A DNA stretch of 64,000 nt, taken from contig NZ_CP063845.1 of NCBI RefSeq assembly GCF_021018745.1, forward strand, positions 4,278,001-4,342,000. Direction: 5' to 3'. Each line of letters begins with the position of its first letter. Positions within the stretch are counted from its first letter, which is position 1. Below, piece after piece: positions 3,881 through 17,720 of the stretch. Made by a program: the position numbers and the translations under genes. The notes beneath the pieces were generated by a model. It was not told the DNA's origin. It saw only the letters and a program-made list of their open reading frames with translations, and did no database searches. This DNA is from Gloeobacter morelensis MG652769 (lineage in GTDB: Bacteria > Cyanobacteriota > Cyanobacteriia > Gloeobacterales > Gloeobacteraceae).

Positions 3881-4693
3881 TCAAAGTTGCCGGTGTTGCA
3901 GCACGGGCAATTGGCGGCGCACCGCCTCCAGGCGCATGGGGTTGATTTCGCCGATGGCGATGCCGGTGGTGTCCCCGGCGTCGGAGAGCACGTTGCCCCA
4001 CGGATCGACGATCATCGCGTGGCCGTAGGTTTGGCGACGCGGATAGTGCTCGCCGGTCTGGGCGGCGGCGATCACGTAGCAGGTATTTTCGATGGCCCGC
4101 GCCTGCAGGAGCACCCGCCAGTGGTCCTTGCCGGTGAAGGCGGTAAAGGCCGAGGGAACCAGCAGAACTTCCGCCCCCGCCGCCGAGAGGGCCCGGTAGA
4201 GTTCCGGAAAGCGCAGGTCGTAGCAGACCGATAGGCCCAGATTGCCGAGGGTGTCGCTGCTCACCACCACCAGGTCTTTGCCGGGCACGATCGAGTCGGA
4301 TTCGTGGTAAGTGTTGCCGTCGGGCAGGTTGACGTCGAACAGGTGCAATTTGCGGTAGCGGCCCAACTCCTGACCCTCAGGACCCACGAGCAGGGCTGTG
4401 TTGTAGCACTTGGCCGTCTGCTCGGCCATCACCGGGTAGCCGCCGCCCAGCAGCGTCACCGCCCAGTCGCGCGCGGCGGAGACGAGAAATTTTTCGCTCA
4501 TCTCGGCGATGCGCGGGGCGAGGGCGAGTTTCTCAGCCTCCAGTCCCAGAAAGGCAAAATTTTCGGGCAGGCTGACCAGGCGGGCGCCGCGGCGCACCGC
4601 GATGCCAATCAGTGCGTAGGCCTGGTCGAGGTTGGCCTCGATGTCGGCGGTGCTGGTCATCTGGATGGCGGCGGCCAGGTAGCTTTCTATCAC
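3881..4693 (-). CDS. Carbon-nitrogen hydrolase (nitrilase superfamily, Nit1/Nit2-like)
   Basis: A 270-residue amidase of the nitrilase superfamily. The catalytic Glu-Lys-Cys triad is visible in SLPENFAF (about residue 43), YRKLHLFDV (about 115) and SVCYDLRFPE (about 157). The LHLFDV and CYDLRFPELYRAL contexts match the Nit branch that hydrolyses deaminated glutathione, so metabolite repair is the likely role. The start is a GTG at 4693 that abuts the ssb TAA stop directly, so translation is probably coupled to ssb. Substrate specificity is inferred from family membership only. Confidence 0.87.
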   Translation of the reverse strand: MIESYLAAAIQMTSTADIEANLDQAYALIGIAVRRGARLVSLPENFAFLGLEAEKLALAPRIAEMSEKFLVSAARDWAVTLLGGGYPVMAEQTAKCYNTALLVGPEGQELGRYRKLHLFDVNLPDGNTYHESDSIVPGKDLVVVSSDTLGNLGLSVCYDLRFPELYRALSAAGAEVLLVPSAFTAFTGKDHWRVLLQARAIENTCYVIAAAQTGEHYPRRQTYGHAMIVDPWGNVLSDAGDTTGIAIGEINPMRLEAVRRQLPVLQHRQL

Positions 4694-5059
4694 TTAAAAA
4701 TCCTCGTCCATGCTCGGTGCCTCGCCGGTGCTGTCGCGCTTGGAGCCGAGCAATTCCAGGCGGTCGACTTTGATAATCGGGCGCTCTTTGGCTTCTTTGG
4801 TGGCTTTATCCTGCCAGCGGCTGAAGGTGAGGGCGCCGGACACGCCGATGAGCGAGCCTTTGCGCACGTACTCGGCGGCGATCTCGGCGGTCTTGCCCCA
4901 CACTTCGAGGTCGAACCAGTCGGGTTTGTCCTCTTCACCCTTGCGCCGCAGGCGGTTGACCGCGAGGGTGAGGGTGCATTTGACATTGCCCGATTCGAAG
5001 TAGCGCACTTCTGGATCCCGTCCGGCCCGACCGACCAGGGTCACCATGTTCAAACTCAT
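4694..5059 (-). CDS. ssb: Single-stranded DNA-binding protein
   Basis: A 121-residue OB-fold protein that coats single-stranded DNA in replication and repair. It opens MSLNMVTLVGRAGRDPEVRY and has the family features NRLRR, WFDLEVWGKTAEIA and RKGSLIGVSG. The C-terminus is acidic and ends MDEDF, the usual tip that recruits partner proteins. Cyanobacterial SSBs are often this short. ATG 5059 was chosen because it opens the conserved OB fold; an upstream extension adds no conserved sequence. The nitrilase gene follows with no gap. Confidence 0.92.
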   Translation of the reverse strand: MSLNMVTLVGRAGRDPEVRYFESGNVKCTLTLAVNRLRRKGEEDKPDWFDLEVWGKTAEIAAEYVRKGSLIGVSGALTFSRWQDKATKEAKERPIIKVDRLELLGSKRDSTGEAPSMDEDF

Positions 5060-5149
5060 CGCTGCTCTCCCGCGTTTGCCAGTAAAGCATAACAAAACCG
5101 CCGTCTCCAACGCCTGGCAATGCAGGTGCCGTACGGGTGCCGCACACAG

Positions 5150-8100
5150 TTAAAACCGCGACTCAAACTGCACCGAGAGGCTGACGTCGTCGAAGGTTTC
5201 GTTGCCGCTGACGCGGGTGATGATGTTGTCGTTGATGCGGTAGCGCAGGCCGAAGATGACTGGCTGGATGTTGTCGGTGATGTTCTTGAATAGCGAGACC
5301 GACACCGCTGGGGTGAGGTCTTTGATCGCCTCGACGCCGATGCCGATGGCAATGTTTTCGGGGCTGGCGCTCGCCACCCGGCTGGCAAATTCGACGCGCA
5401 GCTCGTCCACACCCAGAAGTGCGGCGAGTTCCTGCTCGACCGGCCGGATGAGGGTCGTGCCCACCGCCGGGATGAGCCCGGTCAGCAGTGAACCAGCCCC
5501 GCCGCCGCCGCCAATCAGCGCGATGATCGCGGTCTCATCGCGGTAGGGACTGGAGGTCAGTTCGATGTTCGGTTTGGAAGCGGTGCCGGTGACGGTCGCA
5601 TCGACTTCGATAGTCGAGGCGCGGCCGAGGTTGGCCTGATCATAAGACAGGCCGGGATTAGACAGGCCGGGATTGTTCAACCCGCTGCTATCGAGGCGTG
5701 CCACCCCGCTGGTGAAAGATTCGCTGACGCGCGCTTCGGCCACCAGGTCCAGGGCCGGATCGAGGCTGCCGCCAAAGTAGAGGGCGTTGCGGCGGCTGCT
5801 GTCGAGGCGGAAGCGCGCCACCCCGATGGTGACCGAACCCTGCGGGACATTGATGTAGCCTTCGACCGCCAGTTTGCCGAGCGGGCCGCTCAAGGCCAGT
5901 AACCCATCGAGCCGGGCGCTCAGGGCCGTAATGTTGACGCGAAACTGCGGGCCGACCCGGATGCGCAACTCGTCGAATTCGACCGGCAGCGCCGGAGCGC
6001 CGTTGCTGTTCGCCGTGCGCAATCCTGCGCCGGAGAGATTTTGAATATCCTGCAGCGACAGCAGCAGATCCCCCGGGCTCACCGTCAGGTTACCGCCGAT
6101 GCGCGGTCCAAGCAGCGCCCCGCCCACGTTCAGCTGGCCGTCGATACCTCCTCTGTAGAGCCCCGGCAGGTTGATATTGCCGTCGATAAACAGAGCCAAG
6201 TCCCCACCCGCCCCGTTGTTCGGCAACAGTGCCAGTTCCCCTTCACCCGTCACAGGCGCACCGCCCAAATTGGCCGCAAGCCGGTCGACCAGCAGCCGCC
6301 GCCGGTTGAAGCGCGCCGCGAACTGGTCGATGGCGAGGGTCGTCTGCAGCCGGGGAATCTGTACCTGGGTGTTGCGCAATTCGACGTTGCCGTCGATGAG
6401 CGGCGCTCCGTAGGTGCCCTGCACGGCGAGGGTCGCTTCCCCTTCGGCGCTCTGCCAGACAAGTTGATCGCTCAAGATGTTCAGTAGCGGCAGGTTCTCA
6501 CCCGTCAGTTGTGCCTGGATATCGATCTGGTCGTTGTCGGGGTTGAGAAACGGGATGGGCAGACTGCCGACCAACTGGACACCACGCCTGCCGACGCCAA
6601 TCGCGGTGTTGGCCAGGGACAGCCGCCCGGAGCGCAGGGTCAGCTCCGTGCGCACCGGATCTACCTGGCGGCCGTTGAACTCCAGCGCCTCCGCCGCGAC
6701 ATTCGCTTGAAAGGCCGGCGATGCGAGGGTACCCGAGAGGACCGCCTCGGTATTGATGGCGCCTTCGATCTGGGTGCCCGTGGGCAGCAGTGGTTCGACC
6801 AGTTCGAGCGGCAAACGGTCGATGACCAGCCGCGCGTTCTGCTCGCCCGCCAGCGACAGGCGCCCCGAGAGGCTGCCGCTGCGCTCGGCGTAGCGGGCCT
6901 GGGCCTGGGTGAGCTCCAGGTTGCCGTCGCGGTAATCGCCCGCGGCCTCGACCGTGTCGAGACGGTACTGATCCCACTGCCAGTTGCGCCCGGCCAGCAC
7001 AAAGCCTACTACCGGGGCGTTGCGGCTGCCGCCCAGCCGGGCGCTCAGATCGTAGCGCCCGCGCAGCCGCCGCAGATCGTCGGGGATAAAGGCACGGGCG
7101 GCGGTGTCGATGCGCGCCAGGGCCACCTCCGAAGCGCGCTGGTAAACGGCAAGCAATTGCTGCAGCGGCAGGGCCGTCCCTCCGAGGGCAAGGGGGCCCA
7201 AATCCACCGCACAGCAGACAGGGGCGCTCTGGTCGGAAAACAGGGTGGTGAGCGAATACAGACCCAGAATCTGTACCAGTTGCTCCAGGCGGCCCCGCTC
7301 GACGCGCAGCTCGAAGGCAATCGGGTCGTCCGCACCCAGACCCGCCTGGCCGCCCAGGGTGTAGCGGCTGTTGCCGAGGGTGATGAGCGTCGGCTCGACT
7401 GTGAGGCGGTTATTGGCCAGGCTCGCCCGCAGTCGGGTGGGGCCGAGGGTAAAGGCGTTGAGGCGGCCCCCGCTGAGGGTGGCATCGACGCGGCCTTCGT
7501 AGCCGCGGGCGGTGCGCGCGAGGTCAACCTCGGCGTCGAGGCTGCCTTCGAGGGTGCGCAGCGGTCCTACCGGGTCGAGCTGCAACCTTTCTAAATCAAA
7601 GTTTTCGACTTGGGCGGCCAGTGTAGTCAGCCCCTGCTCGAAGTCGAAGTAGCCCCGGCTGGCGGCGATGCGCGTCCGGTCGCTCAGCACGTCAAAAGCG
7701 ATCAGGCGCACCCCCTGCGGCTCCAAACGCGCCTCGGCGAGGACGCGCTGGTTGTCGCCCGTCAGGCGCACAGACAGGGTATCGCCCCGCCAGCGCACCG
7801 GGCCGCTCAGCACCGGGGCGCGGTAGCGGCCCACCCCGGCACCGCGCACGCCCAAGTCGAGGGCCAGATCCGGCTGCTCCAGATTGCCGCTAAAGATGCC
7901 GTTTCCATAAAGCTGTCCGTCGACGCGCACCGGCAACGGCAGGGCCGTCAAGTCGAATCGGTCGAGGGCAATGCGCAGATCGGCTGAGCGTAGGAACGGA
8001 CCGGGAGCGCCGCTTAGATTGGGCCGCAACTCGCCCGCGGCCGTCAGACCGTTGAAGGTGAAGCGGTCAAGCTGCACGAGTTGATCGCGCAGGCGAAAGG

Positions 8101-11175: not shown

Positions 11176-12123
11176 ATGTTGAACTTGTACATTCCGAGCA
11201 TCGAGGTGCGCCTGCTGCGCGAAGGCCTCGTCGAATCTGTCCATTACTGCGAGGCGGTCGTCGCCGATCACCGCGGCCGCACCCTGGCCCACGGCGGCAA
11301 CAAGCAGTTGCCCACCACCTTCATCCGCTCGGCCCTCAAACCCTTTCAGGCGCTGCCCGTCCTGCGCAGCGGCGCCCACCAGGCCTACGCTATGGACGAC
11401 GCGGATCTGGCCTTGCTGTGCTCCTCCCACAGCGGCGAGCTCATCCACGCCCGGCGCGCCTTCAATTTGCTCTGGCGTATGGGGCTCGACCCTGCGGTGC
11501 TCGTCTGCCCGGTACCCCCAGGCCGCACCAGCCCGCTCGAGTACAACTGCTCGGGCAAGCACGCCGGCATGCTGGCCGTCTGCCGGCAGCGCTCCTGGAC
11601 CACCGAGCGCTACGCCGACCGGCGCCACCCGGTGCAACTATTGATCGCCAAGACCCTGTGCGAATTGCTCGCGCTTCCATTCGACGAACTGGTCCAGGCG
11701 CGCGACGACTGCGGAGTGCCCACCTACCAGTTGGCGCTTGCCCAGATGGCCTGGCTTTACGCCCAGCTCTCCTCGGGCGAATCGGCCGAACTTGAGTGCC
11801 TGGCGCGCGCGATGATCCGCCAACCGGAGATGGTGGCGGGCGAGGGCCGCTTTGACACAGTCCTGATGCAGATGAGCGGCGGCGACCTGGTGAGCAAGGC
11901 CGGTGCCGAAGGCGTGCAGTGCATCGGTCGCATGGGTCAGGGCATGGGACTTGCCATCAAGGTCTACGACGGTTCCGACCGCGCCAAGTACCCGGTGGTC
12001 ATTCATCTATTGCGCCAGTTGGGCTGGATCGATCCGGCCGTGGCCGATGCCCTGGGTGACCGCTTCGCTGTGCTGGGCGAGCATCAGCGCCTCGAAGTGG
12101 TGGGCGAACTGGAGATGGCTTAG
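11176..12123 (+). CDS. L-asparaginase II family protein
   Basis: A 315-residue protein of the bacterial asparaginase II family, distinct from the E. coli AnsA/AnsB fold, which hydrolyses L-asparagine to aspartate and ammonia. Recognisable segments are KQLPTTFIRSALKPFQALP, LCSSHSGE, NCSGKHAGMLAVC and DDCGVPTY, and later AGEGRFDT and GMGLAIKVYDGS. ATG 11176 starts just before the conserved IEVRLLREGLVES. A very long open frame upstream in the same phase is antisense to the LpxB-related gene and is not part of the protein. The two genes are divergent across about 105 bp. Confidence 0.88.
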   Translation: MLNLYIPSIEVRLLREGLVESVHYCEAVVADHRGRTLAHGGNKQLPTTFIRSALKPFQALPVLRSGAHQAYAMDDADLALLCSSHSGELIHARRAFNLLWRMGLDPAVLVCPVPPGRTSPLEYNCSGKHAGMLAVCRQRSWTTERYADRRHPVQLLIAKTLCELLALPFDELVQARDDCGVPTYQLALAQMAWLYAQLSSGESAELECLARAMIRQPEMVAGEGRFDTVLMQMSGGDLVSKAGAEGVQCIGRMGQGMGLAIKVYDGSDRAKYPVVIHLLRQLGWIDPAVADALGDRFAVLGEHQRLEVVGELEMA

Positions 12124-12189
12124 TCTGGATTAAGCTTTCGCGTGAGGCTGTCGGCGTGTGGCACGAGGCTTCCAAAAGTGAGTTTTTCG

Positions 12190-12363
12190 ATGCCCACGGC
12201 CGAGCAGTTTGTCGCGCTTTTGCGTACCTGCCTGACGCTGAGTGATTTCTACACACCTATCTACCTGGTGCGGGTGGACGAGCGAACCGGCAACTTGGTG
12301 ATCCTGGCTGGTGAGGAGGTTGAAGTGGAGATTTTCCCCGATGGAAGGAGGGAGATTCGATGA
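12190..12363 (+). CDS. DUF6888-like small protein
   Basis: A 57-residue protein: PTAEQFVALLRTCLTLSDFY, then PIYLVRVDERTGNLVILAGEE, then an acidic beta strand. It resembles a cyanobacterial small-protein family that is regularly encoded just before a DUF6887 partner. Function is unknown; the two-gene layout suggests a toxin-antitoxin-like or regulatory pair, which is inference. Its TGA stop overlaps the start of the next gene as ATGA. The chosen ATG opens the conserved PTAEQ segment. Confidence 0.65.
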   Translation: MPTAEQFVALLRTCLTLSDFYTPIYLVRVDERTGNLVILAGEEVEVEIFPDGRREIR

Positions 12364-12581
12364 GCCGCCCCGACTTGGAGCAAATGACCGACAAGCAGCT
12401 GCGGGCTTATGTGCTGGCCAACCGGCAGGATGCCGAGGCGTTCTATCTGTACGTAGAGCGTATGCGGCAGAAGCCGCCAATTGCTGTGCTGGGACCTGAT
12501 GATCCCTTGCCTCCCGAGCTGATCAAACGCCTTGAAGCAGAAGGCCGCAAGTTTCGCTCCAGAGGCGATACAGACGAGTGA
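12360..12581 (+). CDS. DUF6887-like small protein
   Basis: A 73-residue protein: SRPDLEQMTDKQLRAYVLAN, then DAEAFYLYVERMR, then PPELIKRLEAEGRKF. The MTDxQLRAYVLxxRxDxxAFxxYV pattern matches a recurrent cyanobacterial family. It overlaps its upstream partner by four bases and has a strong GGAGG ribosome-binding site inside the partner gene, so the two are translationally coupled. No catalytic motif is visible. The role is unknown. Confidence 0.7.
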   Translation: MSRPDLEQMTDKQLRAYVLANRQDAEAFYLYVERMRQKPPIAVLGPDDPLPPELIKRLEAEGRKFRSRGDTDE

Positions 12582-12589
12582 AAATTTGC

Positions 12590-12709
12590 CTTAACAGCGT
12601 TTTGAAATCGACCTGTGGCAGGCAGGTGCACTCGGAGCCACCGAGCCGATCCATTGGGCCGCCACACAGCAGGTAGTAATCGTCTGTAAAAGCAATTCCA
12701 TCCAGAAAC
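12590..12709 (-). pseudogene. Decayed 3'-end copy of the dockerin-like gene at 13581-14489
   Basis: Minus-strand translation gives DDYYLLCGGPMDRLGGSE, then a PQVDF segment. The intact gene ends with GDYYVRGGPMDRLGGSE, then PQVDLEALRCR. Roughly three quarters of the bases agree over about 95 nt, with one 3-nt gap. The copy has no start and no stop matching the parent. It lies just beyond the 3' end of the HNH gene, while the parent lies just before the RHH gene, so the RHH/HNH cassette is bracketed by the two copies. Confidence 0.7.
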
Positions 12710-13138
12710 TCAATCTTGTGGTGGGTGCCAACCTGCTTTTATCCATTCGTTCCTGACAAGCAGGGCGATCAGATTGTTCAGTTGAAGCGCCACGACCGTT
12801 GCCCGCCCACAGACGGTCCGGCCAAGGACGCGCAGGCCATCGTCACTCCAGGTGAAATGCCGCTTCCAAAGTTGCGAGCGCGGATTGAAGAGCTTGCTGC
12901 GTCGAGCGGTCAGCGGATCTATCCCGTGGGTCTGTGTCCCCTTGAAACCATTGCAGAGCCGACACGCAAGCCAGAGATTGTCCTCTACATCGGTCCCGCC
13001 TCGGGCCTTGGGCACGATATGATCGACTTCCAGTGCACCGAACACATATTTCTGCGCACTCAGGCAGTAGCCGCAGCGATTGAGGGCCTGCAGGTGGATG
13101 CGGAAGCGGACATGCTCTGGAATCCGGCTGGAACTCAC
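12710..13138 (-). CDS. HNH endonuclease family protein
   Basis: A 142-residue protein with a single HNH domain: CGYC (about residue 22), LEVDHIVPKARGG (about 36-48), NLWLACRLCNGFKG (about 54-67). His and Asn in these motifs would bind the metal and activate water for cleavage of a DNA phosphodiester, and the two CxxC pairs would bind structural zinc. The C-terminal 75 residues are not recognisable. Its ATG overlaps the stop of the upstream RHH-like gene by four bases, so they form a coupled pair. Similar stand-alone HNH proteins occur in mobile or defence-associated cassettes. Confidence 0.85.
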   Translation of the reverse strand: MSSSRIPEHVRFRIHLQALNRCGYCLSAQKYVFGALEVDHIVPKARGGTDVEDNLWLACRLCNGFKGTQTHGIDPLTARRSKLFNPRSQLWKRHFTWSDDGLRVLGRTVCGRATVVALQLNNLIALLVRNEWIKAGWHPPQD

Positions 13139-13524
13139 GGGCTGAGCGGTTCTCGCAAACCTCTGCGGACTGCTTCGTGTAAAGCCTGAGCTTTTCTAAG
13201 CAAACCTTCTTGATAAATCTGCATCAAGGCCATCAACTGGGAGCGCTCCCCCTCGGCCAGTTCCCCTGCCTGCTGCCTGTCAAGCAATGCACTCAATTGC
13301 TCATCTTGCTTGGGAGACATTTGCAGTGCAGTCAACGCGAGGACTTCTTCATCGGACATTTCAGCAATTTTTTGGAAATTTTGGGATCGAGAAACCACGG
13401 GCAGCAAAGATAAGGCAATGGCATCGACTAGAATATCAGCGACTTCACGGCTGACCAACTTGGCCAGAGATTCGGCGCGTTGGTACATTTCGTCGGGGAG
13501 GCTGATGGTAATCTGAGTGCTCAT
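13135..13524 (-). CDS. Ribbon-helix-helix-like protein paired with the HNH gene
   Basis: A 129-residue protein. The N-terminus STQITISLPDEMYQRAESLAKL looks like a ribbon-helix-helix DNA-binding motif of the CopG/Arc type. The remainder is helical (DEEVLALTALQMS, QDEQLSALLDRQQAGEL). Similar cyanobacterial proteins occur directly upstream of HNH genes. It may repress the cassette or deliver or neutralise the HNH protein, which is inference. The ATG at 13524 is 56 bp beyond the stop of the dockerin-like gene, on the same strand. Confidence 0.7.
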   Translation of the reverse strand: MSTQITISLPDEMYQRAESLAKLVSREVADILVDAIALSLLPVVSRSQNFQKIAEMSDEEVLALTALQMSPKQDEQLSALLDRQQAGELAEGERSQLMALMQIYQEGLLRKAQALHEAVRRGLREPLSP

Positions 13525-13580
13525 CGGTGTCTGCTCGTCGATCGAGGTTGCAGAGGCATTCTGGGGTGATGGACGCGGGC

Positions 13581-14489
13581 CTAGCGGCAGCGCAAGGCTT
13601 CGAGGTCGACCTGGGGCAGGCGGGCGCGCTCGGAGCCGCCCAGCCGATCCATCGGGCCGCCGCGCACGTAGTAATCGCCCGTGCGCACCCCGCCGCCGAT
13701 GGGCCTACCGCCTCCAAAAAGAAACCCGAATATACCCCCCAGCATGCCGCCCCCCCCGGCGGGGCTGTTGCCGGCGTCGAGCACTTCGACGCGGATGTTG
13801 ATATCGGCGCGGCCGGGGCCGCGGTTGGTGATGTTGGCGGTGGAGGCGAAGACCGCCCCCTGCTGGTCGCGCAGTTGCTCGGTAAAGCTGAAGCGCACGT
13901 CGGAATAATCGTTGACCTGCCAGCACAGCCGGTCGAGGCGCTCGCCGGTGGCGACTTTATAGGTGCTGTAGAGATTGGACAAATCGCCCGGGAGGCTGAT
14001 TTGTTCGCTTTGGGCGTTGCCGCTGCCGCTGCTGAAGCCGCCGCGCGCTTCGTAGATCTGCGATACGAACCGCCAACTGCCGCGCACCCACTCGGGCACC
14101 ACTTCCTCAAGCCCCAGCGAAAACGCCGAACCGCTAGCACTGGCCCGGTAAGGGGCGCGGCGCTGTTCGCCCCCGGCGCGCTCGGCGCTCGCCCGGCCGC
14201 TCAGGGACGGTTCTTCGACCGCGGCTATCCCCAACCGCTGTCTGAGGGCGTTGGCGTCTTTGCCGTCGACCTGCCCGTCGCCGGTGATGTCGGCGCGGCG
14301 GCTCTGCTCTTCGACGAGCAACCCCGAGCCGTCTAAGTACTGCTCCAGCAAAGTGAGATCTGCTCCCTCGGTTTTGCCGTTGCCGTCGATGTCGCCCGCC
14401 TGCTGGGCTGCGAGCGGCCCAACGGACAACAACAGCAGCACAGCGGCAAGCCAGACGCTCTGGATCGACGGGCGGTAAAGGGTCATCAT
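13581..14489 (-). CDS. Secreted dockerin-like (EF-hand repeat) protein
   Basis: A 302-residue exported protein. It has a signal peptide (SVWLAAVLLLLSVGPLAAQ) followed by two calcium-loop repeats of the type I dockerin kind: GDIDGNGKTEGADLTLLEQY and ADITGDGQVDGKDANALRQR. The C-terminal domain (about 95-302) is unrecognised, contains a Gly-rich run (GGGGMLGGIFGFLFGGGRP) and ends YYVRGGPMDRLGGSERARLP. The start is one of two adjacent ATGs (14489 or 14486). A longer in-phase open frame upstream is antisense to the neighbouring flavoprotein gene. A decayed copy of its 3' end lies at 12590-12709. A structural or surface role is likely. Confidence 0.75.
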   Translation of the reverse strand: MMTLYRPSIQSVWLAAVLLLLSVGPLAAQQAGDIDGNGKTEGADLTLLEQYLDGSGLLVEEQSRRADITGDGQVDGKDANALRQRLGIAAVEEPSLSGRASAERAGGEQRRAPYRASASGSAFSLGLEEVVPEWVRGSWRFVSQIYEARGGFSSGSGNAQSEQISLPGDLSNLYSTYKVATGERLDRLCWQVNDYSDVRFSFTEQLRDQQGAVFASTANITNRGPGRADINIRVEVLDAGNSPAGGGGMLGGIFGFLFGGGRPIGGGVRTGDYYVRGGPMDRLGGSERARLPQVDLEALRCR

Positions 14490-17045: not shown

Positions 17046-17372
17046 GTGAGCCTTAAGGAACTTCAGCCCCAACTGCTCGCCCTTTCTCCCGAAGAAAAAG
17101 CCCAGGCGATTGAGCTTTTGGCTCAAAGTCTCAGCAATGTCTGGCGCGGTGTCGCAAAAATTCCGGGTGTGGTCGGCGGTGATGCCTGTGTTGCCGGTAC
17201 TCGTATTCCAGTTTGGGGTTTGGTCAACTACCGACGCCTGGGAGCCGACGATGCTCGGATTCTCGCGGCCTTTCCCCAACTGACCGCAGCGGACCTGCAG
17301 AACGCCTGGGCTTATGCACAAGCCTTTCCCGACGAAATCGAGATTGCCATCCGGGATAACGAGAACGCATAG
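17046..17372 (+). CDS. DUF433-family antitoxin
   Basis: A 108-residue protein whose core, IPGVVGGDACVAGTRIPVWG followed by LGADDARILAAFPQLTAADL, is the DUF433 winged-helix antitoxin domain. An N-terminal helix (LLALSPEEKAQAIELLAQSL) precedes it. The start is a GTG at 17046. It is followed after 3 bp by a DUF5615-type toxin gene, the standard DUF433/DUF5615 type II arrangement in which the antitoxin binds DNA and masks the PIN-like toxin. Here the toxin is truncated, so the antitoxin may be an orphan. Confidence 0.85.
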   Translation: MSLKELQPQLLALSPEEKAQAIELLAQSLSNVWRGVAKIPGVVGGDACVAGTRIPVWGLVNYRRLGADDARILAAFPQLTAADLQNAWAYAQAFPDEIEIAIRDNENA

Positions 17373-17375
17373 CTT

Positions 17376-17720
17376 ATGGCCCAGTTGTATGCCGACGAGC
17401 AATTTCCGTTTCCGGTCGTCGTTTTGCTGCGGGCACTGGGACACGACGTATTGACGGCTCAGGAGGCCGGCCAAGCTACCAAGGGCATACCAGACGAACA
17501 GGTATTGGACTTTGCTGTCAGTCGACAATGCGCAGTTCTCACCCAAAATCGTCGCCATTTTGTGCGGCTGCATCGCACTTGTCCGGAGCATGCCGGGATC
17601 GTCGTCTGATCTGAGGATTTGAACTGGCAGCGGCTTGCTGACAACATCCACAGGGCGATCGGGGATGAAGAGGAGAATCTGGCAAGAAAATTACTACGGG
17701 TCAATCGTCCTCCCTTATGA
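17376..17720 (+). pseudogene. DUF5615 PIN-like toxin with an in-frame premature stop
   Basis: The frame opens MAQLYADEQFPFPVVVLLRALGH and continues with GIPDEQVLDFAVSRQCAVLTQNRRHF, the conserved PIN-like core with acidic residues near the N-terminus. It stops at TGA 17607-17609 after GIVV. The same frame then continues as SEDLNWQRLADNIHRAIG, ending at TGA 17718-17720, which is what the family has after a Cys or Thr. One nonsense change therefore removes the last 37 codons. The 77-residue product may be inactive, or the TGA may be occasionally read through. Confidence 0.8.

Follow-up and report, generated by a model that had tools for sequence, protein, structure and literature searches.

The insertion of restriction-modification genes is accompanied by long target duplications of variable length, as PMC1643837 and PMC3031569 describe from the work of Nobusato et al. 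(2000, Gene 259:99). In E. coli, circularised incoming DNA that enters by a single crossover generates partial duplications of 109 to 950 bp (PMC3240628), and entry by single-crossover or illegitimate recombination has been proposed for arrays of T6SS effector-immunity genes (PMC5361080). Addiction-like modules have a wide and scattered distribution in bacterial genomes and lack visible transposases. Our literature search found no paper on toxin-antitoxin insertion with target duplication and no paper on an HNH toxin combined with an RHH antitoxin.

Here we describe a two-gene cassette of Gloeobacter morelensis MG652769 (G000) that lies between the 3' end of a gene and a decayed copy of that end. 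The window, i.e., the whole stretch of 64,000 nucleotides that was analyzed, covers positions 4278001 to 4342000 of contig 1, and three other genomes of the genus were compared with it. We consider it likely that a small mobile module, probably toxin-antitoxin-like, inserted just past the stop codon of a dockerin gene, whose last ~100 bp were duplicated in the process. Insertion with a long target duplication at this site is well supported by sequence comparison; more broadly, duplicated host gene ends recur in front of addiction-like modules.

The cassette and the two ends of its target gene

On the minus strand, the locus consists of a Dockerin_1-domain gene, a spacer of 56 bp, an RHH gene, an HNH gene and then a copy of the dockerin 3' end, ~98 bp long. 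The dockerin gene (13581..14489; PF00404, E = 8e-11), which is the target, is intact and encodes 302 amino acids, with orthologues of 96%, 92% and 74% amino acid identity in G001, G002 and G003, respectively. Its intact 3' end, the gene-side duplicate (13579..13682, minus strand), was delimited by a repeat search and by alignment with these three genomes. The antitoxin-like RHH gene (13135..13524; 129 amino acids) was assigned from weak family matches, a structure model and an intact G001 orthologue, and the HNH endonuclease gene (12710..13138; 142 amino acids; PF01844, E = 1.9e-12) has a GTG start. The two genes overlap by 4 nt and together occupy 12710-13524 on the minus strand. With their promoter region they form the inserted cassette (minus strand, approximate limits 12688..13578), which begins directly past the target stop codon and is absent from G002. 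The orphan, decayed copy of the target 3' end (12590..12687, minus strand) was identified by collinear alignment with G002 (L023) through the junction of DUF6887 and the gene end. Past this copy, the plus strand carries genes for DUF6887 (12360..12581; PF21826), DUF6888 (12190..12363; PF21828) and asparaginase II (11176..12123; PF06089, E = 1.5e-109). Both DUF genes are collinear in G002 and are neighbors older than the cassette, and the asparaginase gene is the left boundary of the variable interval. Farther along the window, positions 17046-17609 hold a DUF433/DUF5615 pair, of which G002 keeps 99 bp (17396-17494) between two deletions.

The first-pass annotation had placed the RHH/HNH pair between the dockerin-like gene's 3' end and a copy sharing the residues GGPMDRLGGSE, and this bracketing was confirmed. 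Positions 12601-12668 and 13599-13666 form an ungapped direct repeat of 68 nt with 82% identity, followed after a 3-bp offset by a second block of 19 nt with 84% identity (12669-12687 and 13664-13682); the decayed copy reads ...GGPMDRLGGSE..., and the bracket, at ~12590-13682, is a little longer than had been annotated. The local score across the real cassette was 51, compared with a maximum of 21 among 298 size-matched fake cassettes within the window. Relative to the consensus of intact ends, 9 of the 12 differences in the decayed copy are C>T or G>A, and its GC content is 55%, compared with 73.5% for the intact end, as expected for a released, non-coding copy.

A cassette-free relative was found in G002, where a single gene end directly follows DUF6887. 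Window positions 12046-12682 align with G002 at 82% identity through DUF6888 and DUF6887 and straight into the target 3' end, and similarity for the remainder of the target gene resumes at window position 13582, at 93%. The orphan copy occupies the position that the gene end has in G002, and since collinearity with G002 runs through the copy into the gene, what has decayed is the original end, still at its original location. The cassette (~0.89 kb) separates this end from the gene, which now carries a duplicated intact end. Insertion at the 3' end with the end itself duplicated, as first proposed, is thus supported. Downstream of the target gene, G000 and G002 are similar up to about the stop codon, so one boundary of the cassette lies there; in the window, the precise junctions have been blurred by decay.

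At the same junction to the target gene, G001 has an intact RHH gene (129 amino acids), with the HNH gene cut to its first codons and with the copy, DUF6887 and DUF6888 replaced by ~1.1 kb with a HAD-like gene (identified by eye) that is broken. This broken hydrolase gene lies between asparaginase and RHH (L022, reverse complement of 4405-5514). Between G000 and G001, dS is 0.18 for RHH and likewise 0.18 for the target gene, indicating that RHH was inherited at this site. In G004, which belongs to a related genus, the asparaginase and dockerin genes converge directly, and none of these inserts is present. The cassette insertion probably dates to the stem of G000 and G001.

These comparisons leave the reading in which the copy is left over from an earlier duplication of the dockerin gene, or is a chance resemblance, unrelated to the cassette, extremely improbable. 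Dockerin paralogues do exist elsewhere in the genome (46% identity in the C-terminal part), but the copy is limited to the last ~100 bp of the gene, and relatives from the same genus and the same family show one gene end here, not an older tandem array. Chance is already contradicted by the fake cassettes, of which 0 of 298 in the window reached the real score.

According to a second alternative, which we regard as unlikely, the HNH-RHH pair already stood beside the gene, and a foreign segment composed of asparaginase tail, DUF6888, DUF6887 and gene tail entered later, with its left side exchanged by homologous recombination and its other side joined illegitimately upstream of HNH; the orphan end would then have come with DUF6887. 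The orphan end is indeed collinear with the DUF6888/6887 side, the segment common to the window and G002 is 82% identical compared with ~92% in the surroundings, and G002 has a 78-bp asparaginase tail beside DUF6888 while its full asparaginase gene is on another contig. However, the dS of DUF6887 (0.43) is near that of vertically inherited neighbors (0.32-0.38) and compatible with descent, the copy places best with G000 and G001 rather than with G002 or outside, and recurrent bracketing elsewhere (see below) needs no DUF6888/6887.

The placement of the copy used a tree of ~95 nt, on which the stem of G000 and G001 had the best likelihood (RELL 0.60), with other placements unrejected. A distantly foreign origin of the copy, raised in the first-pass annotation, was thus unsupported by this weak result, which leaves alternatives; the divergence of the copy fits relaxed constraint.

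In G002, the full-length asparaginase gene is on one contig and the extra 78-bp 3' end beside DUF6888 on another (L228 contig 12, 45566-45643; L221 contig 10). This tail is a second gene-end duplication in the interval, perhaps produced by a rearrangement.

Bracketing repeats at other loci

RHH-HNH pairs are widespread in cyanobacteria and also occur in Chloroflexi, Acidobacteria, Planctomycetes and other metagenome-assembled genomes (MAGs). For 97 distinct pairs, we compared the 500 bp upstream of RHH with the 500 bp downstream of HNH, using same-size fake cassettes in the same contigs as controls and a score of at least 40 as the repeat threshold. Direct repeats at this threshold bracketed 13 of the 97 pairs, compared with 9 of 1,019 fake cassettes (P = 2e-9), with 84 pairs having none; inverted repeats were found at 0 of 97 pairs. 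The end duplication that had been suggested for the window thus recurs at RHH-HNH pairs in other genomes. Among the 69 pairs fetched after the effect was first seen, the counts were 5 versus 9 of 1,017 fakes at a score of at least 40 (P = 0.001) and 9 versus 12 of 1,017 at a score of at least 30 (P = 2e-6). The excess of repeats remained after the pairs were clustered at 85% identity.

The bracketing repeats usually represent the end of a neighboring gene, and the clear cases are at unrelated genes, each of which was left whole. The duplicated sequence is the 3' end of PutA (L039), of an open reading frame (ORF) of 142 amino acids (L086), of a PSCyt2/PSD1 gene (L166, where the copy starts 3 bp past the HNH stop codon), of PIG-L (L162) and of a helix-hairpin-helix gene (L111), and the 5' end of Uma2 (L053); a further case (L158), with a score of 38, involves the leader of a gene that by eye resembles argS. 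Repeat length is ~98 bp in the window, ~40-210 bp at other pairs and 67 to 945 bp at PutA, and the module may be oriented either way relative to its target gene. Ambiguous brackets were set aside, namely L046 (two DUF433 paralogues), L153 (paralogous neighbors), L050 and L051 (a dispersed cyanobacterial repeat), and L038 and L176 (repeats rich in GCGATCGC).

Several loci in this collection differ from the clear cases. The second RHH-HNH pair of G000 (L260) has no flanking repeat (scores of 13). At L083, a 79-bp repeat of the RHH leader region lies downstream of a decayed HNH gene, which suggests a partial cassette duplication. A MAG filed under Klebsiella pneumoniae, probably in error, also has an RHH-HNH pair (L115), and its HNH shares 67% identity with the HNH of the window.

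The PutA 3' end, at which different cargos entered repeatedly at one gene, was found in four genomes of one genus (G115, G091, G411 and G236). G115 lacks a cassette and has a single PutA end, making PutA the second site with an empty relative. In G091, the PutA end is present three times, together with an RHH-HNH cassette. In G411, a BrnT-BrnA module is bracketed by a 67-bp copy of the PutA 3' end (L262; L195, 2605-3185), and its antitoxin-like ORF runs into this copy, so that its last residues are the C-terminal peptide of PutA ('...RQGFAPIEGVD'); BrnT was confirmed by Pfam, and its BrnA partner was named from position and sequence. In G236, an insert of 5.6 kb at the PutA end is bracketed by a 945-bp copy with 95% identity (L264, 744-1688 and 7296-8240). 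The G091 locus is also an array with host-gene ends as separators, the PutA-end copies separating RHH-HNH and then a 977-amino-acid AAA/HSDR_N-like gene and an antitoxin-like ORF (L261, contig 1, 1124500-1133500).

Beyond PutA, bracketing repeats were present at 5 of 29 BrnT loci (P = 2e-5 against the fake-cassette rate, which is not BrnT-matched); two cassette extents were tried per locus, and several of the repeats are rich in GCGATCGC. DUF6888/6887 modules were not frequent carriers of the footprint (0 of 20 loci at a score of at least 40). One G004 locus has a DUF6887 gene flanked on one side by a tRNA-Leu gene and on the other by a degenerate repeat of the 3' part of this tRNA (L101, 1154-1241 and 1784-1850).

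HNH homing endonucleases can nick DNA. The first-pass annotation had cast the HNH nuclease as a homing enzyme, and in such a mechanism HNH would nick both strands ~100 nt apart and repair would insert the cassette with a long target duplication. Besides the ability of HNH enzymes to nick, this agrees with the HNH-side repeat copy beginning no more than ~25 bp from the HNH stop codon in most cases. On the other hand, the targets are unrelated in sequence and orientation, the 945-bp duplication at PutA brackets a 5.6-kb insert of other genes, and BrnT/BrnA modules, which have no DNA endonuclease, show the same bracket, once at the very gene end (PutA) that is used by an HNH/RHH cassette. Gene-end-duplicating insertion thus does not need the HNH protein, and we consider homing by HNH quite unlikely. 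Very unlikely in our estimate is also the related idea of the RHH-HNH pair as a minimal self-mobile element, with its own HNH making the paired nicks that give the duplication and RHH guiding or restraining it; if true, it would be a sub-kilobase transposable addiction module spreading across phyla. The interpretation first given to the locus was therefore partly supported: insertion with end duplication was retained, and neither the distantly foreign copy nor HNH homing was.

The RHH-HNH pair as a candidate addiction module

Gene order and spacing in RHH-HNH pairs are constant, with an overlap of 4 nt in 61 of 98 pairs. About 10 of 28 RHH-seeded loci have RHH without an intact HNH gene. HNH-seeded loci included no complete HNH of the close family without RHH; at L110, RHH is 157 bp away. 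RHH thus survives alone and HNH rarely does, as expected of an antitoxin and its toxin.

Family matches of RHH were weak (RHH_5, FitA-like RHH, RHH_1 and Arc). An AlphaFold2 monomer model (mean pLDDT 86) has an extended N terminus, helices at residues 11-24 and 28-47 and a helical C terminus, and its PDB matches included VapB, AtaR, CopG, Arc and TacA2, all with E > 1, so that the predicted RHH fold of the first gene is weakly assigned. As in type II toxin-antitoxin systems, two small, co-directional genes overlap, the first has a predicted DNA-binding domain (a weakly RHH-like N terminus), and the antitoxin-like gene outlasts its partner, with the reverse being rare. The pair is probably a toxin-antitoxin-like addiction module, in which RHH would act as antitoxin and autorepressor and HNH as toxin.

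A role of HNH as a defense nuclease was considered and rejected, as PADLOC gave weak PtuB-type HNH matches only. NCBIfam searches with HNH returned solely HNH-domain matches to IscB/Cas9, far below the cutoff.

Proposed route of insertion and relation to known systems

In the insertion that we favor, the RHH-HNH module entered just after the target stop codon and duplicated the last ~100 bp, the target gene retained one functional end, and the second copy, stranded beyond the cassette beside DUF6887, decayed mainly by C>T and G>A changes. The duplication may arise by host recombination, through one crossover with circularised incoming DNA that carries the gene end, or alternatively by homology-facilitated illegitimate recombination. 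Selection may retain only those insertions that leave the gene intact, which would produce the bias toward gene ends. In both routes, the cassette must arrive on donor DNA that has the gene end beside it, and neither accounts for the first invasion of a new gene end; the analysis revealed no recombinase, no donor molecule and no recent event. Comparison with integrating elements had also been drawn in the first-pass annotation; the cassette holds only RHH and HNH, with no recombinase gene, and instead of a fixed short att core the repeats vary in length, sequence and target-gene orientation.

The recurrent footprint, consisting of a duplicated host gene end, an intact gene and empty relatives, offers a testable route for module spread and a sequence signature by which insertions can be dated and oriented. 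It suggests a general way for such modules to settle without breaking genes.

Among known systems, free-standing HNH homing endonuclease genes are similar in that a small HNH protein is encoded between host genes, but our case differs from them in its constant upstream RHH gene and in the occurrence of the repeat bracket around non-HNH cargo as well. Type II toxin-antitoxin systems with RHH antitoxins (VapB, AtaR, TacA, FitA-like) share the RHH gene in first position, the overlapping downstream gene and the loss of the second gene with the first kept, whereas here the partner is an HNH nuclease and the RHH fold is a prediction with weak support (best PDB match at E > 1). Single-crossover or homology-facilitated illegitimate recombination resembles our case in the partial duplication of a homologous end and in the possibility of displaced orphan gene pieces; single-crossover entry differs in that it needs target homology on the incoming DNA. 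The closest resemblance is to the insertion of restriction-modification genes, as far as the accounts cited above describe it: one relative has the cassette and another lacks it and has a single repeat copy (G002, and G115 for PutA), the direct repeats are long, variable and of target origin, the cassette has no dedicated transposase, and the cargo can be addictive. Unlike in those accounts, the cargo here is an RHH-HNH pair (or BrnT/BrnA) with no methyltransferase, the hosts are cyanobacteria and other phyla, and the targets are mostly gene ends that stay intact. By analogy, the process appears to work like restriction-modification insertion with long target duplication, yet it is not a restriction-modification insertion, and it would extend what is known for those genes to the RHH-HNH pair and BrnT/BrnA.
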